Below, piece by piece: positions 1,405 through 19,824 of a stretch of 59,452 bases of DNA. Location of the stretch: assembly GCA_017622845.1 (NCBI GenBank), contig JAGAQJ010000019.1, positions 1 through 59,452 on the forward strand, read 5' to 3'. The notes beneath the pieces were generated by a model. That model was not told the DNA's origin. It saw only the letters and a program-made list of their open reading frames with translations, and did no database searches. Both the position numbers and the translations under genes were made by a program. Origin of the DNA: Lachnospiraceae bacterium (GTDB lineage: Bacteria; Bacillota; Clostridia; Lachnospirales; Lachnospiraceae). Numbering within the stretch: position 1 is the first letter of the stretch; the number at the start of each line of letters is the position of its first letter.

Positions 1405-1430
1405 AATTACCTCAATCTTTCAATTAAGTT

Positions 1431-2549
1431 CTATATGATCTTTTTATAGATACACACTAATTTACTTGCATACTTATTTATATCAGTCAATTTAAGGACA
1501 AAATTCTGTGCCAATATTTCCTTTTCATATACTTCTTTCTCATGTTCCATAATATATTGAATCTTATCTGCCAACTCAATAGGATTACCATATGTATATA
1601 AATATCCTCTTTCCTCAGATTTTCCTATTAATTCTAATGTTCCGCCCGAATTACTACCAATTACAATTTTCCCCGACATCATAGCTTCTGCTGTGACTCG
1701 TCCAAAGGCTTCCATCCTTGAACACACCAGAATTAAGTCACTTTGCATTCTCAATTCCTGTAAATTATTTGTAAATGGCTTAAACTCTATAAATTTAGAT
1801 AAATCTCGTTTTTTAACATATTTTTTAAGTCTATTCACATATTCAGGACTTCCATTACCTACAATACATAAATGAACATCTACGCCTCTACCAATAAGTT
1901 CTTCCGCAGCCCGGATAGCATCCCATTGTCCCTTTCCTTCTTGTATAGTTCCCGCAATTAACAATTTTTTTTCCTTATACTTTCCTATGTTAGGTTGTAT
2001 AGGATTAAAATAAAGTGAACTTTCCATTCCGTTATACAGCTTAACGATATTTCCACCGTATTTGTCACTATATTTTCTTTTAATACCTTCCGAAATTGCA
2101 ATACAGCATCTACTCTTTTTAACCAACCATTTCATTAAAAAAGGACAAATCACCTTATATGCGAAATCTTCCTGTAAATACTCTCTAAAATGCCAAACAT
2201 GCGGTATATGCAATATGTTAGCAGCAATTGCCCCCACATTTACTGCCAATGAATTGCTATGCACAATATCTATATTTTCTTCTCGTATCAATTTCATTAT
2301 TGAAATAACAGCTTTCAAATTAACAGACCAGTAATCAATTAAATTATAATTTTCTTCATATACACATTGTCTATATTCAATAATCCGTGTATCAATTCCT
2401 CTTTTATCTAACTCACCTTTAAGATTTCCTTTACAAGGCACAATAACAATGGGATGAACTCCTTTATCACAAATCCTAGTTACTAACTCGAGTAATGATT
2501 TAGGGGCACCATTTAATTGCACATCATGAGAAACGTATAATATATTCAT
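1431..2549 (-). CDS. Glycosyltransferase family 4 (GT-B)
   Basis: 372 residues, the normal length for GT4. The N-terminal acceptor domain starts MNILYVSHDVQLNGAPKSL, with the glycine-containing loop typical of the fold. The C-terminal donor domain carries LLIAGTIQEGKGQWDAI and the E-x7-E-type block SRMEAFGRVTAEAMMSGK that binds the nucleotide-sugar. It should transfer a hexose-type sugar from an NDP-sugar to a lipid-linked glycan on the cytoplasmic face of the membrane. Its neighbours (GT2 enzyme, SGNH protein) point to capsule or cell-wall polysaccharide assembly. Donor and acceptor cannot be read from sequence. Confidence 0.85.
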   Translation of the reverse strand: MNILYVSHDVQLNGAPKSLLELVTRICDKGVHPIVIVPCKGNLKGELDKRGIDTRIIEYRQCVYEENYNLIDYWSVNLKAVISIMKLIREENIDIVHSNSLAVNVGAIAANILHIPHVWHFREYLQEDFAYKVICPFLMKWLVKKSRCCIAISEGIKRKYSDKYGGNIVKLYNGMESSLYFNPIQPNIGKYKEKKLLIAGTIQEGKGQWDAIRAAEELIGRGVDVHLCIVGNGSPEYVNRLKKYVKKRDLSKFIEFKPFTNNLQELRMQSDLILVCSRMEAFGRVTAEAMMSGKIVIGSNSGGTLELIGKSEERGYLYTYGNPIELADKIQYIMEHEKEVYEKEILAQNFVLKLTDINKYASKLVCIYKKII

Positions 2550-2629
2550 AATGAGTCACATCCTTTATCCGAACTTTTAAATTATTAACAAATTTTAGTG
2601 CAAATACTCATTCTGTAATACAAACAAAC

Positions 2630-3799
2630 TCAATATAATCCAGTCAATTTTTTATATATATTAAGTCCTGTACAAGTTTTCCTCATATCAACAGATCTAT
2701 CTTGTAATTTATTTAAAATATAGCACAACTCATCCAGTTTAAAGTCGGAGTTTTCGTACAGCATTTTTTCACCGTAATATCTTCTGCATACAACATCTCT
2801 GTGTGAAATTTTGAGACAATGATATTTAATATCATACTTGAATAGATCAATTTCTAATGTTCCATTACCGGAAAACGAAGGCAAATATACTTTTTTGTCC
2901 TTAAAGATATATCCATAAAATATACCATCAATTCTTCTCAATTCGAATATATTGCAAAGTTCATCTGGAAACATTATTGTTTCTATGTTTCTATCGTCTG
3001 CTCCAATAATATCCATAGCTTTCATTTCTTTGTCAATCGCAACTATGCTCTGAGTTGAACGGAATATAAACCTATAACCTTTTAGTTTGTGATTCATTTG
3101 CTGCTTGTGTACATCATGGTTTCGAAATATATTGAATACGCTATCATATTCGTAAAACCGATAGCTGTCAATCTCCGTCAGAAAAACTCCCTCTTCACCG
3201 CCTGTCGCCATATAAAGACTCTCTGGGGCATCCAAGTTGAAGCAAATACTTTGCATCGTCTGTATATCCAGACAAAATGCTAAATTGCTTTTTTCAACAC
3301 AAAACCATAGCTTATCATTTGACAGTACATATGATAGAATCTTTTTATCTCTGCCGAAAATCTCTTTATTTCCAAACAAATCGACCATTCTATATTCTTG
3401 TATATATCGCTTTGATTTCATATCAAAGACCGTAATCATACCGTCGTAAGAGAATGGCATCATATACAAATAATCCTCCCATATATATGCACCACTATAG
3501 ATAATACATTTACTGTCTCCTAAAAGATAATCTAAGCCATGTCTGACTACTTCTTTTTTCTGTGCATCATATTCTATCAACTGTTTTGAATTTCTTTGCA
3601 TAAAATAATAACTGTTTTTATATTTTAAAATTTTTTGTATCCAGCATAATTTGTATTCTCCAACAGGCTTCAAGTCCGCTATAGTGTCATATGTATCAGT
3701 ATTCAAATCCCAATCCATAAACATCCATGTATCTATATCAACCACTAATAAATGTCCACATTCTATGAATCCTGTCATTGCCGATAAATGCTTATCCAT
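2630..3799 (-). CDS. Unknown protein in the glycan cluster, possibly a beta-propeller
   Basis: 389 residues that I do not recognise. The protein has no signal peptide or membrane helix. It shows repeated short blocks of the form 'aromatic-hydrophobic strand, turn, strand', such as the stretches around LLVVDIDTWMFMDWD, YYFMQRNSKQLIEYD, and MITVFDMKSKRY. This spacing suggests a beta-propeller of 6-7 blades. The last ~60 residues are helical and charged. It sits between two glycosyltransferase genes with 80-base gaps on either side, so it is probably co-transcribed and may scaffold or sense glycan assembly. That role is inference from location only. Confidence 0.6.
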   Translation of the reverse strand: MDKHLSAMTGFIECGHLLVVDIDTWMFMDWDLNTDTYDTIADLKPVGEYKLCWIQKILKYKNSYYFMQRNSKQLIEYDAQKKEVVRHGLDYLLGDSKCIIYSGAYIWEDYLYMMPFSYDGMITVFDMKSKRYIQEYRMVDLFGNKEIFGRDKKILSYVLSNDKLWFCVEKSNLAFCLDIQTMQSICFNLDAPESLYMATGGEEGVFLTEIDSYRFYEYDSVFNIFRNHDVHKQQMNHKLKGYRFIFRSTQSIVAIDKEMKAMDIIGADDRNIETIMFPDELCNIFELRRIDGIFYGYIFKDKKVYLPSFSGNGTLEIDLFKYDIKYHCLKISHRDVVCRRYYGEKMLYENSDFKLDELCYILNKLQDRSVDMRKTCTGLNIYKKLTGLY

Positions 3800-3881
3800 A
3801 TATCCCTCTTATCCTTTAACTGGTTTACCTATTCTTCAATTAGATCATTATCCTTCTGACAATCAAATGTTGGCTTACTTC

Positions 3882-5180
3882 TTATATCATTTTAGTGACA
3901 CCCACCTTAAACAGAAAATTTATAACTTCTTCTCTGTTGCGGTCATTCATACACAACCAAAAACAAGCTTCTTTTTCATTCACCAGTTCACCAAACTCTT
4001 TAATTGCATGTCCCAGTAATTCTGTCTCCAGATTATCCTTCTTAGACACAACAAACCCTGAAAAACAAATATCTCTGTCAAGCAGCATTTGAGCATATTT
4101 CTTGGCCTCCACCCCTGCACCGTATATATAAAACTGCCCACAGTATTCATTCGCCATATGATAAACATCATTCAAATAATCAGTGCAGCGTTTTCTTTGA
4201 GCAATCAGTATTTTCTTATACCATATCCTTGCCTCTTCTCCATGGTCCTTTTCTAATTCTTCTACTCTTTTTTCCAATTCAAAATACGTGAATTTATCCG
4301 GCAATTTCAAATATATCCCCATCCTGCATACAATCAATGCAAATTGTTCAATATGGGAGTGGAATCTATAATTTGTTTCCTTATCAAATTCAGCCATAAA
4401 TTCTAAATAGCGATAAAAATAACCTTGTTTAAGATTAATATTGCTTGCCATACTATAATTCCATGACTCCGCATGCATATAATTTCTTACACTCCACACT
4501 TTATCCATGTAATAAACATCGCCATTATATGCACACCACCATCGTACCGGATCATCCCCGACAGGACACATATAATATGAATTCGGAAGAGTCCTGAAAA
4601 GCTCTGCCTTATGAAAAAATGCACTAGTTGGTACTCCTCCATGATGACAACAAATTAACTCTTCGTCACCAATATATCCTGTATTCATATCCAATATCTG
4701 CGGCATAACATCTTTTGTACACTCATTATATCGAATTGCATTATGAATACACAACATTGTGTGCGGATGACTTTCCATCCATTCAAACTGTCTTTGAAGT
4801 TTACCATCATAAATCCAATAATCATCTCCTTCACACCACGCAATATATTTTCCTCTAAGTATCTTGCACCTATACTTTGTAAACAGTTTTCTTCTATCAG
4901 GATGCTTATATGTATTTCTATGTCCCAAATATGCCCTAATTAAATCAGGATATTTTCTGGCATAGTCTCTTATTATTTCCGCAGTGCCATCAGTAGATGC
5001 GTCATCAAAAATTACTACTTCATACTTAAAATTTGTCTTTTGATTAATAATTCCCTCGAGAGCTTTTACAATATAAGCACTGTGATTATAGGTAATACAA
5101 TAAACAGATACCATAATTTCCCCAGTCATCGGGTCATCCGTTGCGATTTTTTCAATCTTTGCTAATTCATCAAACTCCAT
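3882..5180 (-). CDS. Glycosyltransferase family 2 with C-terminal Rossmann segment
   Basis: 432 residues. The GT-A domain occupies roughly residues 20-260: VSVYCITYNHSAYIVKAL opens it, FDDASTDGT gives the nucleotide-binding DDxS/T motif, and WCEGDDYW is the metal-binding DxD equivalent. The tail (from about residue 350, FYIYGAGVEAKKYAQMLLD) is a second, Rossmann-like module resembling the N-terminal segment of the SGNH-like protein encoded at 304-1404. It therefore probably elongates a surface glycan in the same pathway. It is the first intact gene of the 1404-5180 group. The acceptor sugar is unknown. Confidence 0.82.
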   Translation of the reverse strand: MEFDELAKIEKIATDDPMTGEIMVSVYCITYNHSAYIVKALEGIINQKTNFKYEVVIFDDASTDGTAEIIRDYARKYPDLIRAYLGHRNTYKHPDRRKLFTKYRCKILRGKYIAWCEGDDYWIYDGKLQRQFEWMESHPHTMLCIHNAIRYNECTKDVMPQILDMNTGYIGDEELICCHHGGVPTSAFFHKAELFRTLPNSYYMCPVGDDPVRWWCAYNGDVYYMDKVWSVRNYMHAESWNYSMASNINLKQGYFYRYLEFMAEFDKETNYRFHSHIEQFALIVCRMGIYLKLPDKFTYFELEKRVEELEKDHGEEARIWYKKILIAQRKRCTDYLNDVYHMANEYCGQFYIYGAGVEAKKYAQMLLDRDICFSGFVVSKKDNLETELLGHAIKEFGELVNEKEACFWLCMNDRNREEVINFLFKVGVTKMI

Positions 5181-5225
5181 ATATTTATCCTTCTATTAAC
5201 TCTTTCCTTCTATATTTATCTATTA

Positions 5226-5266
5226 GGCGTTTGATAAACGCCGTAACCCATTGATTTCATTGGGTT
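5226..5266. repeat. Tandem palindromes between glycan genes
   Basis: Two perfect inverted repeats lie side by side: a 7-bp stem GGCGTTT/AAACGCC with a 3-base loop, and a 6-bp stem AACCCA/TGGGTT with a 10-base loop. The second is followed on the plus strand by a T-rich run. No plus-strand gene ends here, so it may be a mobile-element scar or a processing site rather than a terminator. Confidence 0.5.
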
Positions 5267-5278
5267 TTCTTGCTTATT

Positions 5279-5990
5279 CTATACAAATTTTCTCTCCACA
5301 ACTTCTATATCTGCTCCTGCTAAATTAGCAATTTTGCCATCCGTGTAGCCAGAATATAAGCCTTTCTGATCTCTGCTCCTTAAAACGCCATCTGGAACAT
5401 CAAGAAAGATTTCCACATATCGCTTATTGTTTTTTCTGTTCCATTAGGAAATTGCATTATTGTCGTTTTTTCCTTAGACCCCCTAAACCTCTCCGTTTTA
5501 TCTTTGTCAAAATAAGTCATATCTAATACCCTGTCCGCAATTGAAAAGTCAAATGAAAATCTGAAATCTGCATGGTTATAAAACAACACAGGAATTTTCC
5601 ATTTCTTACGCCCGTAATCCAGTACAGGTATGACATCATACATGTGTGTAAACAATAATATTTTTTTATAATCTTGTGAAATATCTAATAATTCCTTTGC
5701 TTTAGAAAAATAATCGCCCTTTAAGCAATATATTTCCCCACCGGAAAGCTCCACACTCTCTTTTATAAACACAACAACATCCTTATAATCCTGATCCATA
5801 AATGCCACAGAATAACGCTTATCCGAGTTCCACCTAATCCAGTTATTTACTAAGACGCCCTCCCACAACACCAGATGCTGTCATTACAATAAGCAGCTGA
5901 TTTTTTTCGGCTCCTGTTTCTTTTAAAATTGTATATTTCTCCCAATCATTGCAATTTCATTTTCCAGTTCCAGACTTGCATAAACACCTG
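5279..5990 (-). pseudogene. Decayed glycan-biosynthesis gene (probable GT-B glycosyltransferase)
   Basis: The longest open stretch (5380-5871) encodes 163 residues, including KKILLFTHMYDVIPVLDYGRK and a histidine-containing PVLFYNHADFRF block of the sort found in GT-B-like enzymes. Reading continues in other frames on both sides. Upstream, 5860-5960 encodes ETGAEKNQLLIVMTASG in a shifted frame. Downstream, 5279-5400 encodes about 40 residues ending in ANLAGADIEVVERKFV before a TAG. At least two frameshifts are therefore needed to join the parts, so the gene is disrupted. It lies between the two halves of the glycan cluster. Confidence 0.65.
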
Positions 5991-6081
5991 TTACATACAA
6001 GGAGTAAAAATATCAAATCAAGGTATTGTTCAGCATTTTTTCAATTACTTTTTACATCAACTGTGCCTTTACTATCAAATT

Positions 6082-6540
6082 CTATTTTATTTTTGTAAAG
6101 TTCATGACAGTATCACTGCTTACACCCATTATATCATCTGGATCTATAAAATTAGACCAAGTCATTTTACCGTTACTTATATCTAAATCCATTATTACAG
6201 TTGCTGTCGCCCACAAAACACTTACATCAAGCTGGAGTGTTTCCCCATTAACATGATATTGTGCTGTAATACCATCACTGCTACCACTAAGATATAAAAA
6301 CTGCCCATCTTTTGTAAATTCATACAATTCACCATTGTCTGTGCACTCCCATCTGCCAACTATTTGTTTCTCTGAACCGCCAGCAAATAGTTTCATGACA
6401 AAAACAGCAATTAAAATAACAATTGCAAAAACTATAACTAATCCAATTTTATTTCCTTTTACATTAGTTACAATCTTATTTGTTTGTCTTACATTTCCCT
6501 TTGCTTGAATTGTATTATTTGATATATCCCCCATAGCCAT
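6082..6540 (-). CDS. Small membrane-anchored protein with extracellular lipocalin-like domain
   Basis: 152 residues. A hydrophilic N-terminus of about 30 residues is followed by one membrane helix (residues ~32-52, IGLVIVFAIVILIAVFVMKL). The outer ~95 residues begin with IVGRWECTDNGELYEFTKDG. This W-x-C-x(n)-G-x-F pattern is seen in small lipocalin/DUF5640-type domains of Firmicutes. The protein probably displays this domain outside the cell. It is separated from the ATP-grasp gene by 190 bases, so it may have its own promoter. Function unknown. Confidence 0.6.
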   Translation of the reverse strand: MAMGDISNNTIQAKGNVRQTNKIVTNVKGNKIGLVIVFAIVILIAVFVMKLFAGGSEKQIVGRWECTDNGELYEFTKDGQFLYLSGSSDGITAQYHVNGETLQLDVSVLWATATVIMDLDISNGKMTWSNFIDPDDIMGVSSDTVMNFTKIK

Positions 6541-6730
6541 CTCTCCTTATTAATTATTTTATGTTCTCTTGCCTTCAAAGCAACAGTTGATGCACTTTAT
6601 TTACAAGTATAACAAGCAATTCATTTATCATAGAAATTAGTTACTTCTTATATTTTTTGTTTTATGTACCTTCTCTTAATATATCTCATCATAAAAGAAA
6701 TCGTGTTTCTACTAAAACATTTAAAAATTA

Positions 6731-7981
6731 TTATTTCAAAATAAACCTATCAAGTATCATGTTATTTCCTTTTACATCCAATACTTGTAAAATATCATAT
6801 ACATCTTTTATTGTATTATTAATTTTTTCTTTGGTAGTTCCTAGTATGTTAATTTCTGCTATCCGCTGATTTACATCTTTGGTATCATCTACCACATCTC
6901 CAACCTTATGTCTATAGGTTACATATTCAACCCCATTTATTTTTAAAAGATTATCAATTGGTGAAATACTTTTTATTTTTCCTTTTTTTATAAATGGAAA
7001 TAAATTTAAAATAATATAATTTTTTAAATAAACTGTATCTTCATCAATCACATTTTGTAAACTTAAAATTTTCCCAGAAAACGAAAATTCTATCATAGCT
7101 TGCATTAAATCTATATTCATCACATTTTTAAAAATTCTGCTTGCTTCAGTCCCCGGAAACCTCAATCCTGGGTCAAAGAAATAAAAGTCATCTTCATCTA
7201 CAAATCCCTGCATAAAAACAGGACTATTTTTTATGCCTATATGCTTAATCATATTTTTAATTTTGTGATTCACTTTTTTTAAAAAAAGATTTGTATATTT
7301 CGATGGTGAAATGCCAGCAATTGCAATATGCTGCATCCCATACTTGTCACTACCATTTATTTGATCTGCTGTCCGTATTAATTTGGGAATACCATCAAGT
7401 ACCAGATAAGTGACTTGAATAATATGCTTTTTCGCCATATATTTTTCAATAATGACCTTACCATTTTTAGAAATCATTTTTGCACCATTGATAGCTCTCA
7501 AAGCTTCTTCTTTGTTATAGCATACACATTGTCCTTTAGAGCCTTGACTGATAGAGGGTTTTATATAAATTGGATATTCTACCACATCTAATGACTGTAA
7601 TTCCTTCTCCGTATATCCTTTAATAGTGTTTACGCCATATTCCAAACATTTCTTTTTAAATAATTCCTTATCTGTAAATATCTTAAATTGCTCGTCTGTT
7701 CCAAAACATGGGCAATTCAATAAACTGCATAATTTTTGATAATATGGTTGGCAAAAATCCAAGTAAGCAGAAAGAACCGCCTTTATATTTTGATTCCTAC
7801 ATATATCAGCAAGCCTATCTACATCTTTTACATCTATATCATAGCTATAATCTGAAATTAACTTAGCTGGAGAATTTTTCACATTATCGACTACTATTGT
7901 TTCTTTCTCCATTTGGTGTGCAGCTTCAACTAATTTACAATGAAGGTTTGCACCACCTAAAATCATAATCTTATCTTTCAT
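6731..7981 (-). CDS. ATP-grasp ligase of the surface-glycan operon
   Basis: 416 residues from the ATG at 7981, chosen because GCGGAG lies just before it; an upstream in-frame start would overlap the preceding gene. The N-terminus (KIMILGGANLHCKLVEAA) is the carbamoyl-phosphate-synthase/biotin-carboxylase-like pre-ATP domain. The ATP-grasp core includes YPIYIKPSISQGSKGQC (phosphate loop and lysine) and FFDPGLRFPGTE near residue 290, the metal-binding block. Such enzymes join a carboxylate to an amine using ATP. Lying 26 bases after an opine-type dehydrogenase, it may activate the carboxylated product of that enzyme or attach an amino acid to a sugar. The substrate is inference. Confidence 0.75.
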   Translation of the reverse strand: MKDKIMILGGANLHCKLVEAAHQMEKETIVVDNVKNSPAKLISDYSYDIDVKDVDRLADICRNQNIKAVLSAYLDFCQPYYQKLCSLLNCPCFGTDEQFKIFTDKELFKKKCLEYGVNTIKGYTEKELQSLDVVEYPIYIKPSISQGSKGQCVCYNKEEALRAINGAKMISKNGKVIIEKYMAKKHIIQVTYLVLDGIPKLIRTADQINGSDKYGMQHIAIAGISPSKYTNLFLKKVNHKIKNMIKHIGIKNSPVFMQGFVDEDDFYFFDPGLRFPGTEASRIFKNVMNIDLMQAMIEFSFSGKILSLQNVIDEDTVYLKNYIILNLFPFIKKGKIKSISPIDNLLKINGVEYVTYRHKVGDVVDDTKDVNQRIAEINILGTTKEKINNTIKDVYDILQVLDVKGNNMILDRFILK

Positions 7982-8007
7982 AGCAAACTCCGCTTTTTCT
8001 TTTATAA

Positions 8008-9039
8008 TTACATATCTAACATACATAACCTTCCATACTTACGATAATCGCAATTCATGATTATATTTGCAAAGGATATTACTTCTGTTGTTACTGGTAC
8101 TTTTATACCTAATTTTAAGGCAGTGTCCTCCATGGGTACTAATCCATATGGCACATCCTCTTCAATATACCGATTACAAACCAAAACAGGCGAAACTATT
8201 TCCTGATAATACTTATTCGTCTGTAAGTGCTCATACAGTCCCTTTCCGTTGGTATCATAATTTCTCATCATCCAATCCACAATTGACTCCAATTCATAAC
8301 CCAACTCATGTGCAATTTCTAACCTTTCTGAATCCAATCTTTCAATTAAACTCGCAATTGTAGGAGTTATACCCTCCGTGTAATATTTAAATACTCTATT
8401 ACTCTCTATGCTCCCAAAATTCAAAAGCATCGGAATTGGATGCAATATCATTCCAATATTTCCAAATGAAGTCTCAATATATGAATTAACTTTTTTATAA
8501 CGCATTCTTAAACATTCTGGCATTTTATTTAAAACCTTATCAAGACTTTCTTCTCTAGTAGAAGCAATTGGAATATCATTTTTTAGGGCATATATCTTAA
8601 CACTATTTTCACCTTCTCGCCTACTGGCAAAAATCGTTGTCTGACATTCTGCAATAATTGGAATTTCATTACAGCCTGCTAGCCTCAAATTATATATAAA
8701 ATCAATAATGCCAAAAGTCTTACCAGGACTCAAAAGTATTGTATAACTACTATCAACATGTTTAGCCAACAAAGCAGCTACCTCTTTATGTGCAGACGCC
8801 GGAGTGGCAACAACTATTGTTTTTTGCAATGCATCTTCTATTTTTGATGATACATGAGAAACGTACACTCTCTTATTCAATACACCGCTACAAACAATTT
8901 CATTTGTTTCCATTATTTTTCTAATATGACCTGCTGTACGATTATATAAATAACATTCCACATTATTTATTTCTAAATAAGCAGCCATTGCAAGACCTTG
9001 ATTTCCTGCCCCGACTATCATAACTTTTGAATTCTCCAT
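8008..9039 (-). CDS. Opine (octopine/nopaline-type) dehydrogenase
   Basis: 343 residues from the ATG at 9039, which has AGGAG in front. The N-terminal Rossmann fold shows VMIVGAGNQGLAMAAYL, and the C-terminal opine-dehydrogenase domain shows the family's conserved N-x(n)-H-P block (SFGNIGMILHPIPMLLN) with the catalytic histidine. The family reductively condenses an amino acid with a 2-oxo acid using NAD(P)H. It sits in a tight operon between an FkbM-type methyltransferase (13-base gap) and an ATP-grasp ligase (26-base gap). This context suggests an N-carboxyalkyl amino acid destined for a surface glycan. The alternative, a secreted opine metallophore, is less likely because no nicotianamine-synthase-like gene or exporter is present. 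Confidence 0.75.
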   Translation of the reverse strand: MENSKVMIVGAGNQGLAMAAYLEINNVECYLYNRTAGHIRKIMETNEIVCSGVLNKRVYVSHVSSKIEDALQKTIVVATPASAHKEVAALLAKHVDSSYTILLSPGKTFGIIDFIYNLRLAGCNEIPIIAECQTTIFASRREGENSVKIYALKNDIPIASTREESLDKVLNKMPECLRMRYKKVNSYIETSFGNIGMILHPIPMLLNFGSIESNRVFKYYTEGITPTIASLIERLDSERLEIAHELGYELESIVDWMMRNYDTNGKGLYEHLQTNKYYQEIVSPVLVCNRYIEEDVPYGLVPMEDTALKLGIKVPVTTEVISFANIIMNCDYRKYGRLCMLDM

Positions 9040-9052
9040 ACTCACTCCTATT

Positions 9053-10156
9053 TTATGGTACTGCATATAGAAACAATCTTGACGGCATAGAACTCTGAAA
9101 TCTGAAATATAATTTATAAGAAGGCTCTATCTCTTTTATATAAAGCGGAATTAGGAATAATTCTTCTTTCATTGTTCCTAAATTTACAATCAAACGTGGT
9201 TTATTTGCAATAATTGTATTCTTTGAACCTTTTATAATTTCTAAAACAGCAGCAGATATTCCTATATATATTGTAGAAATACTTTTTTCATCTATGCAAA
9301 TATTGTCAATTGTATCTACATCTATAAATGAGCTAAAATTATCATCTATTCTGCAACACTTATCCGCGCTATTATTAAAACCCAGCCTAGTCTTCTTATC
9401 ATAACATCCAATTTTTTCTAGTCTTTTTTTCTTCTCATCAATATAACTCAAATTTATACATAATTTATTAAAATTATTATCTTCTGGTTCCAGTCCAATC
9501 ACTTTATTTATCGAATCCGCAGGTGCTGCTTTTAAAAAGCGCTGTATGCTTCCACCTTGATATGCTCCTATATCAAGAAAAGTTTCATTATAAGTTGGTT
9601 CATAAACATCATTACAAAATTCATCTATATCTTTCTTTGAAATATCAACCACATACTGTGGATTTTCAGTAATTCGAGAGTTTACAAATGCGCACAAATT
9701 TTCTCTTGACTCATTATCTTCCAATAATTGATATAACACTTCAAACTGTTTTTCATGCTTTTTAACAAACTTTCTATCAAAAGTTTTATGATGTTCAAAC
9801 GGTCTTGCAATGCAAATAACATTTCTAAAAAAACCCTCGTTGATTAATACTTGCATTTTTCTATAACCCGCCGCATATCCAATTACTAAGTTATACTTCT
9901 TTTGACTTTTTATATTTGAGGTAAACTCCTCAAATTTTTGCACTGGTATGCCCATAAAATTTTCTTTTATATAATACCCATCATCTACCAACGCCAATTC
10001 AAACTTTACTCCTCGGTCCAAGAATTGCTTGTTCACAGCCTCTGCTAAATTTCCTATTCCATATAATACATATTTATCAGTTCTATTTTCTTCAATAAAC
10101 TTATATGGATTTATCACTTTTGGCTTTACTACTATCTTATTCATAAACTCGTGCAT
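9053..10156 (-). CDS. FkbM-type methyltransferase with N-terminal Rossmann segment
   Basis: 367 residues. I place the start at the ATG at 10156 because GGAGGG precedes it at the right spacing; a start 12 codons upstream has no such site. Residues 20-110 form a sugar-acyltransferase-type Rossmann segment (YVLYGIGNLAEAVNKQFLD). The second half is an FkbM-like SAM-dependent domain (ETFLDIGAYQGGSIQRFL, then GLEPEDNNFNKL). FkbM enzymes O-methylate sugars or small molecules. The gene is the second of the 11323-6731 operon. The canonical acidic pocket residues look poorly kept towards the C-terminus, so activity is uncertain. Confidence 0.7.
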   Translation of the reverse strand: MHEFMNKIVVKPKVINPYKFIEENRTDKYVLYGIGNLAEAVNKQFLDRGVKFELALVDDGYYIKENFMGIPVQKFEEFTSNIKSQKKYNLVIGYAAGYRKMQVLINEGFFRNVICIARPFEHHKTFDRKFVKKHEKQFEVLYQLLEDNESRENLCAFVNSRITENPQYVVDISKKDIDEFCNDVYEPTYNETFLDIGAYQGGSIQRFLKAAPADSINKVIGLEPEDNNFNKLCINLSYIDEKKKRLEKIGCYDKKTRLGFNNSADKCCRIDDNFSSFIDVDTIDNICIDEKSISTIYIGISAAVLEIIKGSKNTIIANKPRLIVNLGTMKEELFLIPLYIKEIEPSYKLYFRFQSSMPSRLFLYAVP

Positions 10157-10207
10157 TATATTAACCCTCCATTTTTTACTCATATCATTCATAACATATT
10201 TAAAATT

Positions 10208-11323
10208 TCATTCCTTTCCGCATTTTAACGAAGAAATGACTTTGTACATACTTGATATTCCAAGGTTTTCATAAAATGGTATAACCAGCACCTGCTTTGC
10301 CAGCTTCCTTGCGCACTCCAGTTCCACTCTCTTATACTTATTTTTAAAGCATGCCTGATCTGAAGTAATTGGATAAAAATACTTTCTTGCATAGATGTTA
10401 TTTTCCCGTAATATGCAATACAGCTCATCACGCGTTTTCCCATACTCATCCTCAATCACAATCGGAAAATACGCATAATTATTGGTCGCTTCGCTATTCT
10501 TTTCAAAGATGCGGATGCCTTTCACATCATGTAGTCTCTCTATATAATAGTCATATCTTTTCTTTCGCTCTCTTAATGCTTCATCAATATGCTTCAGATT
10601 GCACAGTCCCATAATCGCTGCAAACTCATTCATCTTTGCGTTTGCCCCGACATCGCAGACAAGCTCCTCGCCACGAATACCGAAGTTCTTCAAGTTGTAC
10701 AGCTTTTCGTAAATCCTATGGTCAGAAAAGGTTACTGCGCCGCCCTCAATCGTATTAAATACCTTTGTCGCATGAAAGCTGAATATAGAAGCATCCCCAT
10801 AACTGCCAATGCCTTTTCCCTTATACTTTACGCCGAAAGCATGCGCTGCATCATAGATAACCTTCAGGTTATATTTGTCTGCTATTCTTTGTATTTCCTC
10901 TATATTACAGACATTCCCATACACATGCACAGGCAGAATCGCCACGGTTTTTTCTGTAATCAAATCCTCTATTTTCGTCTCATCAATTGTGCCGTCACTG
11001 AGTTTTACATCACAGAACACAGGTTTTAACCTGTTTCTCACAATCGCATGAGTTGTAGAAATAAAAGTAAACGGAGTGGTGATAATCTCAGTGCCTTCCG
11101 GAAAATCAAATGACTGGATTGCCAGCTCCAATGCCATATGACCATTTACCATAAGCGACAGCTCCGGTACTTCCAAGTACTCACACAGCCTTGCCTCCAG
11201 TTCCCTATGATATTGTCCCATGTTTGTCAGCCAATGGCTGTCCCACAAGGGTTTAATCGATTCTATGTACTCTTCATATGGAGGCATAGAAGATTGTGTT
11301 ACAAATATTTTCTCTTCCGGCAT
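10208..11323 (-). CDS. DegT/DnrJ/EryC1/StrS-family sugar aminotransferase
   Basis: 371 residues from the ATG at 11323, preceded by AAGGAAG. The PLP-lysine motif is FSFHATKVFNTIEGG around residue 185, and YDAAHAFG is the cofactor-binding aspartate block. This family converts 3- or 4-keto NDP-sugars to amino sugars. It is the first gene of the four-gene operon, 52 bases ahead of the methyltransferase, and its DNA is less AT-rich than the genes that follow. The most likely job is making the amino-sugar to which the downstream enzymes attach a modification. The particular sugar cannot be assigned. Confidence 0.88.
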   Translation of the reverse strand: MPEEKIFVTQSSMPPYEEYIESIKPLWDSHWLTNMGQYHRELEARLCEYLEVPELSLMVNGHMALELAIQSFDFPEGTEIITTPFTFISTTHAIVRNRLKPVFCDVKLSDGTIDETKIEDLITEKTVAILPVHVYGNVCNIEEIQRIADKYNLKVIYDAAHAFGVKYKGKGIGSYGDASIFSFHATKVFNTIEGGAVTFSDHRIYEKLYNLKNFGIRGEELVCDVGANAKMNEFAAIMGLCNLKHIDEALRERKKRYDYYIERLHDVKGIRIFEKNSEATNNYAYFPIVIEDEYGKTRDELYCILRENNIYARKYFYPITSDQACFKNKYKRVELECARKLAKQVLVIPFYENLGISSMYKVISSLKCGKE

Positions 11324-11359
11324 ATTCAAACTTCCTTGTATTGAAATATTATTACGCGC

Positions 11360-11513: not shown

Positions 11514-11762
11514 CTAACGCTCCATTCTGGCTTCCTCCAGCTCCTTTTCTTCATCAAAATCTTCCGGCAGATATTGTCTGACTATAGTTCTTGCCGCATC
11601 CAGCCTCAAAAAAGCCTGCCTCCCTGTGTCATCACCGAAATCTTCTGCTTTCATACCTGCCTTAGGAAGCATAAATCTTTGTATCATATCAATAAGAAAG
11701 CTCACATCGTCATCCGATAAACCTTTTATCATTTGAGAAGCCTGTTCCTGCAATACAGACAT
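11514..11762 (-). CDS. Putative orphan antitoxin
   Basis: 82 residues from an ATG with AAGGTGG ahead of it (an upstream GTG adds four residues). It is acidic and helical: SVLQEQASQMIKGLSDDDVS at the front and a highly charged tail ending EEKELEEARMER. This layout is common in small type II antitoxins that are followed by a PIN or RelE toxin. Here the following toxin survives only as a short stub, so the antitoxin would be solitary. The assignment is by context and composition, not by a diagnostic motif. Confidence 0.45.
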   Translation of the reverse strand: MSVLQEQASQMIKGLSDDDVSFLIDMIQRFMLPKAGMKAEDFGDDTGRQAFLRLDAARTIVRQYLPEDFDEEKELEEARMER

Positions 11763-11984
11763 ATCAAGCACCACCTTTCAATTACTTCTTTATGATAGTA
11801 TAACTCTTTCTGCCTGTTTTCTCAATAAAAATATGTCTATAACTTTTTTTGCGTGTTTTATTCAGTTATCAATGTTCATACTTTATTATTTTGCTTTTAC
11901 TCATCATAGATACCCTTCTTTTTGGTGTCCATGTGCACAAAAGCTCCTGATATAAGACAATTACATATATTACATCACTGTTGT

Positions 11985-13370
11985 TTATTGTGCCTGCATT
12001 AAATCTATTAACTCCACATTCTGTATCATCACCGGCTTCCCGGTCTGCTGATACATCTGCACAACGCTGCTTGGGTCCCCATAATATGCATCGCTTAGCA
12101 CCACTGCTCTGTCAACGTCTGCAGTATCATCATAGATGCCCCATCCCTCTTCTTTATAATTTCTGACAAGTTTGTCATATTCTATCCACAGTGTTGGACG
12201 CATGGATTTGATGGTATTGGGTATCAGGGGGTGCGGACGCCACAAAAGGGCTGTCTCAGCCTGATTTTCCCTGAAAATGCCAAAGACATACTTCATTTTC
12301 TCCAGCATTTTCTCATTATGTGTTAAAAGCGCTGATATGCTTGTATTGTAAAAAATAATCTTCTTACGTGTTCCGTCGGGCTTTTCGATAATTTTCTGCC
12401 ATTCTTTTGGAATTTCCACTTCTTCCTTTTTGGTGCTAAGCACCTTATCAAACTTTGGCGAGCCGAGTCCTAAGAACTTTTTTTCAAGCATTTTTTTGTC
12501 TATATGTTCATCGGGCAGCTTATTTGCCTTGGCTGCCTTTATGTACTCGTTAATATAAATCTGCCGCATTTTTTCAGACTGTACGATTACTTTATTGGCA
12601 TTTATCACGCCAGGAAGCCATATGAAATGCTTCATGCCGTCAATCGCCTCCTGATTGTCCGGCTCGATTTCGTTTAGGACAAAATATGGGATATAAATAA
12701 GCTGCTCTGTATATTTCCGAAGATTTCTGCTGAAATATTTTTCAGGCACACATGTAACCATATTCCAGTCATCATACGGATTATGGATATAAACAGCATC
12801 CGGCTGTCTATCTTCAAGGTTATAGGTCCTGTAATCAGTTACTTCAATATCGGCAGGGTACTCGTTCCCCTCATAGTGCATTTCTCCAAGACTGCCATCC
12901 GGTCTGCGGTCATAATACGGTATCGGCACGCAGTATGCGTCGCATTCAGGGTCTTCCTTTGCTGCCAGATATACGCTTTCCAAGCTGTCCCACATTGATG
13001 CTTTATATGGGAAAAACACAATTTCTTTCCGAACAGTGATGTCATTCTGCACACTGTTCGATATTTTTATCAGCTGTCGATACAGTGACTTATATATCTT
13101 ATTGGCATTGGCCTCTTCATTGTTTGTTAAGTTTTCATGAATCTGAAAGACAAGCTCACAATATTCTTCCAGCAGAGATATGGTGCAGAAGCCTTCCCCC
13201 TCTGTCTTTTCTATCAGCGTTCCAAGTGCGATTGCCCCGTCCTGACAGTCCTGCAGCAATAGAACCGCCTTCTGTATTTGCTTTTGTTCAATTGCTTTTT
13301 TAATCTCATTATGTGCCTGATCTAACAGTTTTAAAAAGCTTTGAGCCTGCTCCTTCTGTGCTTTTCTCAT
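11985..13370 (-). CDS. CDP-glycerol glycerophosphotransferase-like enzyme
   Basis: 461 residues from the ATG at 13370 (AGGAAA upstream). A longer in-frame reading into the structured element upstream has no ribosome site and low-quality sequence, so I reject it. After a helical N-terminal ~110 residues, a GT-B-like body contains IVFFPYKASMWDSLE. The C-terminal half has LLWRPHPLIPNTI and SDAYYGDPSSVVQMYQQTGKP, matching the nucleotide-binding and acidic blocks of TagF/CDP-glycerol transferases. It probably polymerises or adds glycerol-phosphate-type units to a wall or capsule polymer. It lies directly downstream of the TnpB-like gene and its RNA element. Confidence 0.7.
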   Translation of the reverse strand: MRKAQKEQAQSFLKLLDQAHNEIKKAIEQKQIQKAVLLLQDCQDGAIALGTLIEKTEGEGFCTISLLEEYCELVFQIHENLTNNEEANANKIYKSLYRQLIKISNSVQNDITVRKEIVFFPYKASMWDSLESVYLAAKEDPECDAYCVPIPYYDRRPDGSLGEMHYEGNEYPADIEVTDYRTYNLEDRQPDAVYIHNPYDDWNMVTCVPEKYFSRNLRKYTEQLIYIPYFVLNEIEPDNQEAIDGMKHFIWLPGVINANKVIVQSEKMRQIYINEYIKAAKANKLPDEHIDKKMLEKKFLGLGSPKFDKVLSTKKEEVEIPKEWQKIIEKPDGTRKKIIFYNTSISALLTHNEKMLEKMKYVFGIFRENQAETALLWRPHPLIPNTIKSMRPTLWIEYDKLVRNYKEEGWGIYDDTADVDRAVVLSDAYYGDPSSVVQMYQQTGKPVMIQNVELIDLMQAQ

Positions 13371-13424
13371 AATGTGTTTCCTTTCGCAGTATTCGCTCTG
13401 CTTATTATTTTTGTTAAATAAGGT

Positions 13425-13537
13425 ATATTGGTCATCATTCGATGATGCAGATGATCTGCTTCGCTCCGCAGTACATCTTGTGTTTTTATCACAAGTTCCC
13501 ACAGTCATGGCATACCCAATACGCGGCGGGCGCCGCC
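13425..13537 (-). ncRNA. Structured RNA element downstream of the TnpB-like gene (omegaRNA-scaffold candidate)
   Basis: Read on the minus strand, a GC-rich hairpin (GGCGG/CCGCC) is followed by a 7-bp closing helix (GTATTGG with CCAATAT) that encloses three perfect hairpins: CTTGTG/CACAAG, CTGC/GCAG and CATCAT/ATGATG. The density and nesting of helices is far above that of nearby intergenic DNA. TnpB and its nuclease-dead relatives use a guide RNA encoded at or just after the 3' end of their gene, which is where this lies (114 bases after the stop). It also sits just ahead of the next gene, so it could instead be a 5' leader of that gene. Confidence 0.55.
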
Positions 13538-13650
13538 TTCTAATGCCGTTTGTAACTTTTCAGTACTATCTTCTTTTTTATATCAAAAGTCTGCTCATAG
13601 TCCTTTCGGTAAAGCTCTCTGCCAGGCAATATTTATCTGCTCTGCAGCGC

Positions 13651-14970
13651 TTATCTATTTTGCTGACTTCTTTGAACTAATCCTCTTTTTTTCGCATTCT
13701 GTGCGGCATTTTGCTTTTGTTCTATCTGATATCCGCATACACTGCAGTAAAAAATGTCTTCCTTTTTCTTTCCGATTGCACCGCATTTACTGCACTCGTT
13801 ACTAATGTCCTTTCCAAATACTTCTACCAGCTCAATGGACTGCTCGGCACATTTCTGTCTTAATCTGCTTTTGATATATCCTCTCTGCCACATGGACACA
13901 GTATGATTAACTGCCTTATCTCCACCATGCTTTCGAGCCTTTGGAAGCTTTGGAATATAGATAACCTTCGGTTTTTCTTCTTTAATAAACCGATTCAGTT
14001 CCATATTGATGTAGCTGTGAAGCTGCTGTGTCATACGGCGCTTTTTTGCCTCGTATTTCTTTCTGCCGGGATTTGTATGAATGTTTGCCATGTACCGTGC
14101 ACGCTGTTCCCTAACCCATTCAGACAATTCTATTTGATATTCTCCAAGCTTTTCTCCGTAGGAATGTCCTGTATCCGTTACAAGCATTGTATGAATGCCG
14201 ACTGCAAGTCCTACTTCGCTGGTATAATCTGTATGCTTCTTTACCTCCACATATAAAGGCACATGAAGCTCTATGCTCCTCTGTTCCGGATAAAGTTTCA
14301 TGTATATCTGACGGTTATAGCTGTTGTTGTCTGTCAGTGGAATAAAAATACGTTTGCGCTTTTCCTTCATCGTAATATAGATTCCATGATTAGCATATCG
14401 GTATGCCCGTTCTGTAAGTGCAAATCCGTTTGCTTCTTCCGAATGCATCTGCACATGACGTTTCCTGACTTGTCTGTTCAGGTAATTATTCAGCTTTGGC
14501 ACTGACACCTTCGCGCAAAGTTCATCATATTGCTTCTGCATCGCTTTATCCAGCCTGACTTCCCGGCGGTTGAGCACCATCTCAAAAGCATTGCCAACCT
14601 TCAGCACAAATCTCAGGTAATGCTTTTCTTCGTCTGTAAATCCTTCATTGGCATTTACCCTTTGAAGCACCTCTGCCTTTATGGTTGTCCACTGACTCTT
14701 AATGCTGCCAAGTGCATCAAACACTGCCAGATTAAAGTAAACAAACGGCAAGGCAAGCTCATCTCTGTAGCCGCTTGCAATCATTTCATTCTGAATCGTA
14801 TAACCCGGATAAAGCTTTGGCAGGCTCTTGATACCTCCGAAACGGCTGAAAACGTAATTTTTTACTTTGTTGTAATCGTCTGCTATCTCCTGCAGTTTTT
14901 CCATATTCTGAGAAGATATGGGTTCCTTATTATACTGATGAATGGTCTTACATATCTTTTCTTCTGCCAT
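13651..14970 (-). CDS. TnpB-family protein lacking all three RuvC catalytic residues
   Basis: 439 residues, in the TnpB size range; the ATG has GAGGG in front. The C-terminal zinc ribbon is intact (C393, C396, C409, C412) and is followed by the family's QNAAQNAKKRGL block. The RuvC residues are not. Where TnpB has VGIDLG, this has VGLAVG (A256). The glutamate of the usual IEDL-type strand is P340 in IYIPKLPKA. The last aspartate (DRDxNAA) is K419 in IEQKQNAA. It should therefore fold and bind RNA/DNA but not cut. Nuclease-dead TnpB relatives (TldR) act as RNA-guided repressors in enterobacteria and enterococci; the same role here is inference. A serine recombinase gene lies upstream. Confidence 0.8.
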   Translation of the reverse strand: MAEEKICKTIHQYNKEPISSQNMEKLQEIADDYNKVKNYVFSRFGGIKSLPKLYPGYTIQNEMIASGYRDELALPFVYFNLAVFDALGSIKSQWTTIKAEVLQRVNANEGFTDEEKHYLRFVLKVGNAFEMVLNRREVRLDKAMQKQYDELCAKVSVPKLNNYLNRQVRKRHVQMHSEEANGFALTERAYRYANHGIYITMKEKRKRIFIPLTDNNSYNRQIYMKLYPEQRSIELHVPLYVEVKKHTDYTSEVGLAVGIHTMLVTDTGHSYGEKLGEYQIELSEWVREQRARYMANIHTNPGRKKYEAKKRRMTQQLHSYINMELNRFIKEEKPKVIYIPKLPKARKHGGDKAVNHTVSMWQRGYIKSRLRQKCAEQSIELVEVFGKDISNECSKCGAIGKKKEDIFYCSVCGYQIEQKQNAAQNAKKRGLVQRSQQNR

Positions 14971-15023
14971 AGTGCACCCTCAACTGCCTTAATAATGCCA
15001 GCCAGCATCCATTTATGGCTTCA

Positions 15024-15188
15024 TTTTAAATAAAGTATAGTTTTTTCAAATTAAAATTTTCTAATAACTGTCAGTCAAATTTCATCAATTAAAGCTTTAT
15101 TTTTTGTTGATTTTTTGTAAATATGGTAGTAAAATAACATAGTAGTTTTGGAAAAAGATTTCATAAAAAAACTATGCTTTATTTAAAA
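15024..15188. repeat. 23-bp inverted repeat pair around a 119-bp segment (candidate invertible promoter)
   Basis: The arms at 15024-15046 and 15166-15188 are reverse complements with one mismatch in 23. The 119 bases between them carry promoter-like sequences facing outwards in both directions: TTGACT-17-TTTAAT towards the TnpB-like gene, and TTGATT-17-TAAAAT (around 15107-15135) towards the small ORF. The nearest gene upstream is a DNA-invertase-type serine recombinase. This is the layout of a phase-variable promoter. The arms are AT-rich, and inversion has not been shown. Confidence 0.55.
15050..15078 (-). promoter_or_regulatory. Promoter for the TnpB-like gene
   Basis: TTGACT at 15073-15078 and TTTAAT at 15050-15055 are separated by 17 bases. 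The predicted start falls inside the left inverted-repeat arm, about 70 bases before the TnpB-like start codon. Confidence 0.5.
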
Positions 15189-15228
15189 CCATAAAATTAT
15201 TGCCAAAGGGCTGTTACTGAATAAAAGC

Positions 15229-15454
15229 TCAGGGTTCTCCGAACCGAAAAAGGCACCGACCATTTCTGACCGATGCCTCATGCATTTCTTCTTTTTCCTC
15301 TATTTCAATTTTATATATTCCGGGTTGAGCAGCAGGCATTCCTATAGCATTCTCAATCGCTCCGGTTAGTATCAATGTTCTGTATTCTGTTTTTGCAAAA
15401 GCTTTATACAACAGCCTCCACAATCGTCTTATTTCCAAGCCGAAGCTTTATCAT
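15229..15454 (-). pseudogene. Small protein coupled to the recombinase, apparently frameshifted
   Basis: An ATG at 15454 overlaps the recombinase stop (ATGA), giving translational coupling. The first 16 codons read MIKLRLGNKTIVEAVV and then stop. One frame away, starting at the same place, the reading continues as LYKAFAKTEYRTLILTGAIE and on to CLFRFGEP at 15229. Joining them needs a single indel near 15412, giving a protein of about 73 residues. Either the gene is broken by one mutation or it uses recoding. I do not recognise the family; its position between recombinase and TnpB-like gene suggests it belongs to the same module. Confidence 0.5.
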
Positions 15455-16047
15455 TTTTCCTTCATTCTCCTTGCCCGATAATAAAACGTCGCTGTTTCCA
15501 AATCACAAAGCTTTGCAGCATCTTCTGCATTGATTTCCTTTGACACCCATTTATCATATGCCATGCGAAAATTAGGTACAGGCTTTTCCGGTCTGCCGAA
15601 TTTTACACCGCGCTTTTTTGCTGCTTCGATCCCTTCCCTCTGCCTTTCTCTGATTGCTTTTCTCTCATTTTCACTCACATAGCTCAAAAGCGTCAGGACA
15701 AGGTCTGCAATCAGGGTTCCCAGTAAGTCCTTGCCTTTTCTTGTATCCAGAATCGGCATATCCAGCACGACAATATCCACGCGCATATCCTTTGTCAGAA
15801 GTCTCCACTGCTCCAAAATCTCCTCATAATTTCTGCCGAGCCGGTCAATGCTCTTTACATACAGCACATCATTTTCTCTTAGTCTTTTCAGCAGCTTTTG
15901 ATACATCGGGCGGTCAAAGTCCTTGCCGGACTGCTTGTCTATGTAGATATTTTCGGGAGATACTCCCACCTCAGCCATTGCAATGACTTGTCTGTCTTCA
16001 TTCTGCTGTTGTGTACTCACGCGCACATATGCATACATATTTCCCAT
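15451..16047 (-). CDS. Serine recombinase of the resolvase/DNA-invertase type
   Basis: 198 residues; the ATG is preceded by AAGGTGG. The catalytic domain starts at the N-terminus (YAYVRVSTQQQNEDRQ, nucleophile Ser11), with SIDRLGRNYEEI carrying the active-site arginines and the long E-helix around residues 100-135. It ends in a GRPEK linker and a short helix-turn-helix (residues ~160-195). The C-terminal position of the helix-turn-helix places it with Hin/Tn3-resolvase-type enzymes and not with IS607 transposases, which carry theirs at the N-terminus. It probably inverts or resolves a nearby segment; the inverted repeats at 15024-15188 are the obvious candidate. Confidence 0.85.
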   Translation of the reverse strand: MGNMYAYVRVSTQQQNEDRQVIAMAEVGVSPENIYIDKQSGKDFDRPMYQKLLKRLRENDVLYVKSIDRLGRNYEEILEQWRLLTKDMRVDIVVLDMPILDTRKGKDLLGTLIADLVLTLLSYVSENERKAIRERQREGIEAAKKRGVKFGRPEKPVPNFRMAYDKWVSKEINAEDAAKLCDLETATFYYRARRMKEK

Positions 16048-17939: not shown

Positions 17940-19824
17940 TGTTAAATAAAAAAGTAAATTCCACTTTAGGCTGAATTTACTCTTACACTCTGGTAAGATT
18001 CCATGTATGATACATATTACCTCTTATCCGCAGTAGAAATGAGGTAAATATGTCAAAGAAAATAGAAACAAACCAGAAACACATGACCCAGGATAACCGT
18101 GTAGTTATCGAAAAGGGGTTAGATGCTTCCAAGCCCTTGTCTGTCATTGCTGCCGAATTAGGTAAAGATCCTACCACTATCTCTAAGGAGATAAAGAAGC
18201 ACAGGGCTTTTCAAGAACATAACAAATTCAATGAGCCAGCCTTTCGCTGTGCGCTTGCCAAAGACTGTCACAAGAAACATGTTTGCAGTACTGAACTCTT
18301 TTGTAAAAGGGAATGTAAGAGATGTAACAAATGCCATACTTTTTGCAAGGATTATGTTCCATTTGATTACTCATGCCCCAAAACAAAGAAAGCTCCTTAT
18401 GTTTGCAATGGGTGTTCAAAAAAGAGCGGCTGCCGTCTTGATAAGTTTTATTATCGTGCCACACGGGCTCATAAAGAATACAAGACTGTTCTTGTAGAGG
18501 CCAGGGCAGGAATTAATGCTTCCGAAGAAGAAATCAAAGCCCTTGATGATATCATTAGTCCTCTGGTTGAAAATGGTCAGTCAGTCTACACCATCCTTCA
18601 TAATCATCCGGAAATCACACAGTGTGAAAAGACTGTCTACAACTACATCGAGGCCGGGGTATTTTCTGTCGGAAACATAGATCTCCCAAAGAAAGTGACC
18701 TACAAACCCCGCCAATCCCACGGAACTGAAATCGATGATACCGGTGTTTTTGAAGGCCGCACCTATAAAGACTTTCTGGATTATCTGAGGGAATATCCTG
18801 ATACAAAGATAACTGAGATGGATACAGTGGCTGGTCCGGAAGGAAGCAGCAAAGTCCTCTTAACTCTTCATTTTTGTAATGCAGATTTCATGATGGCTTA
18901 CCTTCTTGACTCCAAAGAATCAATCGGCGTCGAAAAAACTTTTGACAGGATCAACAGAGCGATTGGCACTCCTCTTTTTTGTAAAACAATGCCTCTGATA
19001 ATCACCGACAGAGGCGGTGAATTCAAGCACCCGGAAACTCTGGAATGCGGAATCGACAACATACTGAGAACAAGCATCTGCTACTGTGATCCAATGGCTT
19101 CCTGGCAGAAACCACACTGTGAAAAAAACCATGAGTATATCAGAAAAATCTGTCCAAAAACTATCACTACTTTTGACAGATTAAATCAGGACGATGTAAA
19201 TCTTATGATGAGTCACATCAATAGTTCCTGCCGCGAGAGTCTTGGTGGCTTAACCCCATTCGCTCTTGCAAAAATGATGCTGCCAAAACAATTACTGGAT
19301 TTCTTCGGCTTAAAAGAAATACCTGCGGACGAAGTTATACTTACGCCCGCACTACTCAAGGGTAAAACCGAAGTAAACGCGTAACACGCGAGCATGGGAA
19401 GCTGGTATTTCATGTGTTTACATTAGGGATATCTGTGCCAGGCTGGCACAACGTGCCAACAGGCTTTGTACCTGATCCTGTCCCAACAGGGTCAGGTGCG
19501 GAGCCTGTTCCCAAGCCTGTTACAGCATAGATATGGGTTCCTGATGTCAACACTTTAATTATCCTGCGACAAATGCTCCCAGACAATAAAAATCTGCGGA
19601 TATGAGCTACCATAGTTTTGCTTTCAGGCAGGTGGAATTCAGTCTTACAGTATCCAATTCCAGTTGCCGGCGACCGCATACTCTTTTTTAGAATACATAT
19701 GTCTCAGAATAACTAAATTCAACTATAAAGGGTCTGACAACATATGTCAAACCCTAATAAAACTGAATTTAGTCTTCAGTATGGAATTTAAGTTTACAAG
19801 TGGAATTTAACTTTTCATTCAACC
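17940..19824 (+). mobile_element. Complete IS30-family insertion sequence
   Basis: The 1885-bp element has imperfect terminal inverted repeats of about 27 bp; both ends share AAATTCCACTT at their inner side. It contains one transposase gene and is bounded by identical 13-bp direct repeats. About 440 bases follow the transposase stop. This tail has no ORF of note but several hairpins, including CCTGA-t-CCTGT/ACAGG-g-TCAGG near 19480. It also has repeated GGAATTT/GAATTTA-type motifs near the right end. The intact gene and matching duplications suggest a fairly recent insertion. Confidence 0.8.
18050..19384 (+). CDS. IS30-family transposase
   Basis: 444 residues. An N-terminal helix-turn-helix (LSVIAAELGKDPTTISKEIK) binds the terminal repeats. 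A cysteine-rich segment follows at residues ~62-135 (CHKKHVC, CKRECKRCNKC, CNGCSKKSGC), probably a zinc-binding insert. The DDE integrase core has TEMDTVAGPEG, ITDRGGEF and the C-terminal EKNHEYIRKICPK glutamate block. The gene reads away from the upstream gpmI. It is intact, without frameshift. Confidence 0.92.
   Translation: MSKKIETNQKHMTQDNRVVIEKGLDASKPLSVIAAELGKDPTTISKEIKKHRAFQEHNKFNEPAFRCALAKDCHKKHVCSTELFCKRECKRCNKCHTFCKDYVPFDYSCPKTKKAPYVCNGCSKKSGCRLDKFYYRATRAHKEYKTVLVEARAGINASEEEIKALDDIISPLVENGQSVYTILHNHPEITQCEKTVYNYIEAGVFSVGNIDLPKKVTYKPRQSHGTEIDDTGVFEGRTYKDFLDYLREYPDTKITEMDTVAGPEGSSKVLLTLHFCNADFMMAYLLDSKESIGVEKTFDRINRAIGTPLFCKTMPLIITDRGGEFKHPETLECGIDNILRTSICYCDPMASWQKPHCEKNHEYIRKICPKTITTFDRLNQDDVNLMMSHINSSCRESLGGLTPFALAKMMLPKQLLDFFGLKEIPADEVILTPALLKGKTEVNA

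Follow-up and report, generated by a model that had tools for sequence, protein, structure and literature searches.

Results

A TnpB-family protein without catalytic acids

The window analysed in this study is a stretch of 59,452 nucleotides from a Lachnospiraceae bacterium (contig JAGAQJ010000019.1 of assembly GCA_017622845.1), and the gene in question, at positions 13651–14970 of its minus strand, encodes a 439-aa protein of the TnpB family. The gene lies behind a putative promoter inverton and a serine recombinase gene and is followed by a structured RNA and a surface-glycan operon. A first-pass annotation, made from the sequence alone, had described the protein as having an intact zinc ribbon and replacements at all three RuvC catalytic positions, and our alignments bear this out. 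The protein matches the Pfam model Cas12f1-like_TNB above its cut-off (1.2e-8) and the NCBIfam model guided_TnpB below its cut-off (9.9e-12). A256, P340 and K419 stand at the alignment columns where L033 from Desulfovirgula (loci and genomes are given as L and G numbers), a relative 25% identical to the window protein, retains the catalytic acids D, E and D in GIDLG, YEDL and ADAD, and the zinc-ribbon cysteines C393, C396, C409 and C412 are all in place. The annotation had also proposed that homologues be compared at these residues, and the loss turns out to be clade-wide. Not one of 61 aligned rows from 60 loci (L015 counted as two pieces, L033 left out as outgroup and L146 not read at the catalytic columns) has D or E at the three RuvC columns; instead, column 256 is occupied by S, H, A or Y, column 340 by P, T, A or V, and column 419 mainly by K or A. 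Since the acids are lost in all rows, the catalytic loss is not a private accident of the window. The four zinc cysteines are present in all 58 rows that span the three columns. Most of the 59 other dead-TnpB loci have full-length frames with about 32–65% identity to the window protein, and truncated or interrupted copies occur in L015, L030, L059, L061, L094 and further ones; the window's own genome has one TnpB copy plus one weak fragmentary match at E 2.3e-4. These data support the view that the protein is, judged by its residues, nuclease-dead and has been retained as mostly intact open reading frames (ORFs) across a deep clade.

A conserved structured RNA 3' of the gene

Almost all of the relatives first compared share a conserved sequence 3' of the TnpB stop codon. 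In the window it contains a structured-RNA core at 13416–13552 on the minus strand, which scores 120.1 bits to model R1 (built with it), has the 3' end CCAATATACCTTATTT and a proposed pseudoknot GTATTGG:CCAATAT, and a 5' domain at 13553–13650 of the same strand (CAGATAAAT...TTTACCGAAAGGACT...TGATATAAAAA), which is seen by eye in relatives including RNA loci that have no TnpB. An alignment of 17 sequences gives 22 consensus pairs, of which 15 show compensatory changes, a count made without a slid or shuffled control. The covariance model recovers the RNA in 63 of 68 loci (E 0.02), and the RNA of L135 was found in the genus scan only and not in this 68-locus search. Within the genus, the model places the RNA beside TnpB in 33 of 34 loci, plus L057, and in the 34th, L114, it is seen by eye; L037, L056 and L058 have no RNA by the model. 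The proposed pseudoknot pairs the segment before GTATGCC with the segment before the TTAT end, and takes different forms across loci, such as TTGG/CCAA, TCGG/CCGA, CTGG/CCAG, TCGCG/CGCGA and ACAG/CTGT. Stems combined with their own partners form 4.71 Watson-Crick pairs compared with 3.70 when partners are swapped, and none of 5000 permutations, in which relatedness is ignored, reaches the own value. This test took in 62 of the 63 loci (the pattern was not found in L054), or 58 after removal of duplicates, and kept L045, L051, L116 and L121, where the pattern probably took the wrong segment. In the sequences read, the RNA end is TTAT or a close variant (CTAT, GTAT). Rfam gives no match for the window RNA at the gathering score, and five loci, searched at E up to 1, give two sub-threshold matches. 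Thus, the structured RNA element that the first-pass annotation had described is real and is larger than described there. Just past the RNA, L032 has a very long, almost perfect hairpin at about 1750–1815 (-59 kcal/mol, 114 nt), and the subgroup L106–L113 has a common ATCCA followed by hairpins.

Inverted repeats and recombinases upstream

Upstream of the TnpB gene two inverted-repeat arms, to which no strand is assigned, delimit a putative promoter inverton: a 23-nt arm at 15024–15046 and, 119 nt from it, its 96% complementary partner at 15166–15188. Between them lies a promoter-like match, TTGATT-17-TAAAAT, at 15107–15135 on the plus strand, which points away from TnpB in the assembly and would therefore be in the OFF state if it is the promoter. 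It is the sole sigma-70-like match in the inverton, and the region as a whole has 2 such matches compared with 1.9 expected from shuffles. Because the match faces away and occurs at shuffle-level frequency, the good promoter that had been claimed for TnpB is unsupported. Similar sequences recur in the invertons of L038, L039 and L091. Across the RNA loci, 22 of the 52 that could be tested, some of them close relatives, have strong inverted repeats (score at least 15) upstream, compared with 0 of 312 shuffles; in the remainder of the 63, the gene start is unclear or the upstream sequence too short. Among 22 elements, 7 have promoter-like matches that face the operon and 13 have matches that face the other way, some elements having both, and 5 have none (counts made without a shuffle control). 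The elements of L091 and L093 are identical at 61 of 101 positions as they stand and at 86 of 101 once one is inverted, and the promoter match faces the operon in L110 and away from it in L111 and L113, an opposition of L110 to the other two that is also seen by eye. Opposite orientations of the element are thus observed among relatives, and the window's element is seen in one orientation.

The recombinase of the window (15451–16047, minus strand) has a Resolvase domain at residues 5–148 of 198, an invertase-type layout, and most likely inverts the promoter element that precedes the cassette. An IS607 transposon was considered and rejected, as this layout is not that of IS607 TnpA and the IS607 model gives 26.3 bits against a cut-off of 110. 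The recombinase that had been noted beside TnpB is therefore present in the window, but its type varies across the 63 RNA loci, with tyrosine recombinases near 21, serine recombinases near 9 and none recognised near 33.

The downstream operon

The first operon gene of the window (11985–13370, minus strand) is CDP-glycerol glycerophosphotransferase-like through its homologue L031 only and has no Pfam match of its own. Its probable true start is the ATG at 13370 (MRKAQK...), 45 nt 3' of the RNA; as called, from 13508, the ORF would overlap the RNA. The following surface-glycan genes (304–11329, minus strand) encode a DegT aminotransferase, an octopine-dehydrogenase-like protein, an ATP-grasp protein, two glycosyltransferases and a C2185-like protein (DltD just below cut-off), and 2 of the 8 scanned operon genes have no match. 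Across the RNA loci, one glycan-gene family is the first downstream gene in 39 of 63 by script, or 40 of 63 counting the window, which the script missed. The family is a single-linkage cluster in which some members join through the second domain of fused forms, and its name rests on a Pfam match in one of three members. The link to a surface-glycan enzyme, already suggested in the first-pass annotation, is in this way extended to many relatives. In 5 of the 63 loci the first downstream genes encode a secreted-looking protein pair. The first ORF of at least 90 aa on the RNA strand begins within 200 nt past the RNA end in 53 of the 63 loci. Simple patterns for csrA or a flagellin motif match in 0 of 67 loci, the window lying outside that scan. 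In L036, L038, L039, L041 and L049 the secreted-looking pair (about 175–180 and 340–370 aa) replaces the glycan gene after the RNA; the pair of L041 has no Pfam match, and the FliL hits are weak.

Distribution of the protein and the RNA

Homologues of the window TnpB are present in 18 of the 397 family genomes, in 28 of the 38 from the genus and in 9 of the 344 from the order, and within the family the RNA and the protein co-occur in the identical 18 genomes. As the 17 training sequences of the RNA model were drawn largely from those 18 genomes, finding the RNA in them is in part a given; more informative are its absence from the remaining 379 genomes and the extra copies without TnpB, which were not built into the model. 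Outside the family, the order provides L147, L148 and L151, from two genomes, with a dead TnpB and the RNA, L150, which retains GID, ED and DRD, and L149, which has acids at both columns covered; in the last two the RNA is absent. The genus survey covers 36 of 51 listed places. No close relative of the window TnpB is found in viral contigs or plasmids, and its only phage match, in Thermus phage TMA, is 25% identical.

In genome G283, three RNAs (L091–L093) lie behind inverted repeats with no TnpB adjoining; the same genome has a full-length TnpB without RNA (L037) and a second, broken TnpB copy. In L059, L061 and L094 the RNA persists next to a TnpB that is truncated or broken. Use of these RNAs by the protein would imply action in trans. 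In L045, with a full TnpB, and L094, with a truncated one, the RNA lies at corresponding sites of two genomes. The constant neighbourhood for which the first-pass annotation had proposed a test holds for the RNA within the genus, but neither for the recombinase type nor for the small ORF described at the end of this text.

Discussion

The catalytic loss, the conserved RNA and the site of the gene between a likely promoter switch and a surface-sugar operon suggest that the probable role of the dead TnpB lies in control of the cell coat and not in DNA cleavage. We propose, with a probability of about 0.5, that it is a domesticated TldR-like RNA–protein regulator of phase-variable surface operons, which acts as a non-cutting, RNA-guided DNA-binding repressor. 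A site-specific recombinase would flip a small promoter element, including the window's own, ahead of the surface operon, and with the promoter facing the operon a single transcript would span the gene for the dead TnpB, the structured RNA and the glycan genes. The protein would bind the structured RNA to form a TldR-like non-cutting complex, in which the RNA 3' end past ...TTAT would serve as a short guide. Only in cells with the switch ON would this complex silence a target in DNA, for which a competing surface locus is a plausible candidate. The sequence comparisons that underlie this proposal are the clade-wide catalytic loss, the covarying RNA helices, the coupling of RNA and protein, their position between inverted repeats and operon, and the opposite orientations of the element.

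Several observations weigh against this proposal. Of the 52 testable loci, 30 are without a strong inverted repeat, and the search ahead of co-directional tyrosine recombinases, which covered 14 of 15 loci (L097 was too short), gave no clear excess of such repeats. L037 has a full-length TnpB but no RNA, and downstream of the RNA in L045 and L094 no surface operon runs in the same direction. Should the RNA function in the manner of TnpB guide RNAs, the A/T-rich stretch directly 3' of it (13396–13415, minus strand) is the candidate guide in the window, and it has no convincing target. Genome-wide searches in five genomes, with one guide of 20–22 nt per genome and up to 3 mismatches, returned the self match and 0–2 three-mismatch hits each, none of them convincing, and a scan of the examined loci likewise gave no convincing target. 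An extra hit in the own genome of L138 (3 mismatches in 22), before a gene that resembles polyphosphate kinase by eye, was judged to be chance. At its own locus, a guide seed hardly outperforms a swapped one (for example, 7.66 vs 7.47 nt upstream; the test took in 60 of the 63 loci, 50 for upstream regions), upstream matches of at least 11 nt occur in 6 of 58 same-genome pairs compared with 3.1% of 3848 cross-genome pairs, a weak excess, and eight inspected same-genome guide pairs reveal no consistent site. In addition, positions 2–7 past the RNA end are 83–94% A/T in the 63 loci, which is odd for free guides, and the stretch past the RNA end forms a hairpin in some loci. However, in PMC13418256 a TldR functioned with guides as short as 6 nt, so that a missing long target match is weak evidence and no refutation. 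The idea of an RNA-guided regulator of surface genes, put forward in the first-pass annotation, therefore keeps its dead protein, its structured RNA, its frequent glycan operons and its DNA inversion, but it has gained no convincing guide target.

The main alternative, held tentatively, is that the RNA lies in the 5' leader of each switchable operon and that the dead TnpB binds the nascent transcript, in cis or in trans and with no DNA guide, the control point being elongation, termination, processing or translation. The dead TnpB would then be a leader-RNA partner at several switchable operons, also in trans, and would couple the inversion switch to RNA–protein control of the coat without DNA silencing. 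The fixed position of the RNA close to an ORF start, the three RNAs of G283 directly behind inverted repeats without TnpB, the survival of the RNA where TnpB is truncated or broken, the target searches just described and the strong hairpins past the RNA in a subset of loci are all consistent with such a role. However, no more than 7 of the 63 loci show terminator-like sites in a crude scan of the 700 nt 3' of the RNA, L045 and L094 have the RNA without a co-directional operon, the ancestral TnpB uses an RNA carrying a 3' guide, and a published TldR (PMC13418256) keeps this 3'-guide mode. We consider it improbable that the complex targets its own locus, with TTAT serving also as the target-adjacent motif, so that it binds its own DNA just past the RNA and dampens its own operon. 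Some TnpBs do prefer TTAT-like target-adjacent motifs, the RNA ends in TTAT or a close variant and each candidate guide perfectly fits its own locus, but this self match is trivial.

That the protein still cuts with another set of acids appears very unlikely. The AlphaFold model, built from 4 sequences, had a mean pLDDT of 48.4, too low for use here, and relocated acids were therefore judged from the alignment. E332 is unchanged in all 60 rows that cover it and D248 is D in 55 of 59, but D248 is also found in L033, which has the full triad, E332 precedes the lost Glu by eight residues, and no conserved acid substitutes for position 419. We give hardly any weight to a decaying transposon copy or neutral hitchhiker, which the truncated and interrupted TnpB copies could suggest, as the further loci are mostly full-length, have no catalytic acid and keep the four cysteines in every covering row, as the RNA and its neighbourhood are conserved, and as viral contigs and plasmids hold no close relative, although no search was aimed at Y1 TnpA.

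Several known systems resemble the proposed TldR-like regulator in part. In the phase-variable capsule loci of Bacteroides, promoter inversion heads several polysaccharide operons, and the leader-encoded factor of the window family would differ in being a dead TnpB with a structured RNA. The EAR element and LoaP antitermination place an RNA or a factor at the head of polysaccharide operons; the RNA of the window family differs in having no Rfam match. With the active TnpB of IS200/IS605 and IS607 the window protein has in common the C-terminal TNB/zinc-ribbon region and the general architecture, but it has lost the catalytic acids, and its RNA lies downstream of the ORF and ahead of operons. 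Like TldR proteins, it belongs to the TnpB family, has lost the RuvC acids in an otherwise intact protein and is associated with non-transposon genes; a conserved structured RNA adjoins the gene and may act as the guide RNA. The closest published case is csrA-tldR of Oscillibacter and Flavonifractor (PMC13418256, section 11), with a guide RNA beside the gene, hin upstream, promoter inversions of about 120 bp and guides that predict fliC targets. TldR proteins are thus not limited to enterobacteria and enterococci, as the first-pass annotation had assumed. The window family shares with this case the chromosomal dead TnpB, the adjacent RNA, the upstream recombinase with a promoter inversion, here putative, several loci per genome and the control, likewise putative, of a surface structure, but csrA-tldR has csrA and flagellin where the window family has surface-glycan operons, no guide target found and no csrA or flagellin match. 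The fliC-associated, phage-encoded TldR in the same paper shares the dead RuvC, the RNA beside the gene and a surface structure; it is prophage-borne with a flagellin target, unlike the window family with its distant phage match. A literature search found nothing that links TldR, TnpB and polysaccharide, and the founding TldR paper or the 2023 TnpB classification might report such a link.

If the proposal is right, domestication of TnpB extends beyond the control of flagellin to capsule-like surface operons in probable Lachnospiraceae, the RNA, which Rfam does not match, is a further family, and one module unites promoter inversion, a dead RNA-guided protein and a structured RNA. Genome G283, with its three TnpB-less RNAs behind inverted repeats, makes the choice between guide RNA and leader RNA directly testable.

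Additional features of the locus

The small ORF that the first-pass annotation had described as coupled (69 aa, 15229–15438, minus strand) is probably no gene, as it matched only itself among 34 loci and nothing in later comparisons, and a terminator-like hairpin lies inside it at 15250–15279. An 86-aa ORF at 11514–11774 is antitoxin-like by impression only and has no Pfam or NCBIfam match. In L038, a gene at 7343–8806 beside the cassette is AAA ATPase-like by eye and was placed in the TnpB cluster probably by chaining. An IS30-type transposase at 18050–19384, two genes away from the window's recombinase, scores 77.3 bits, slightly short of the NCBIfam cut-off of 80.

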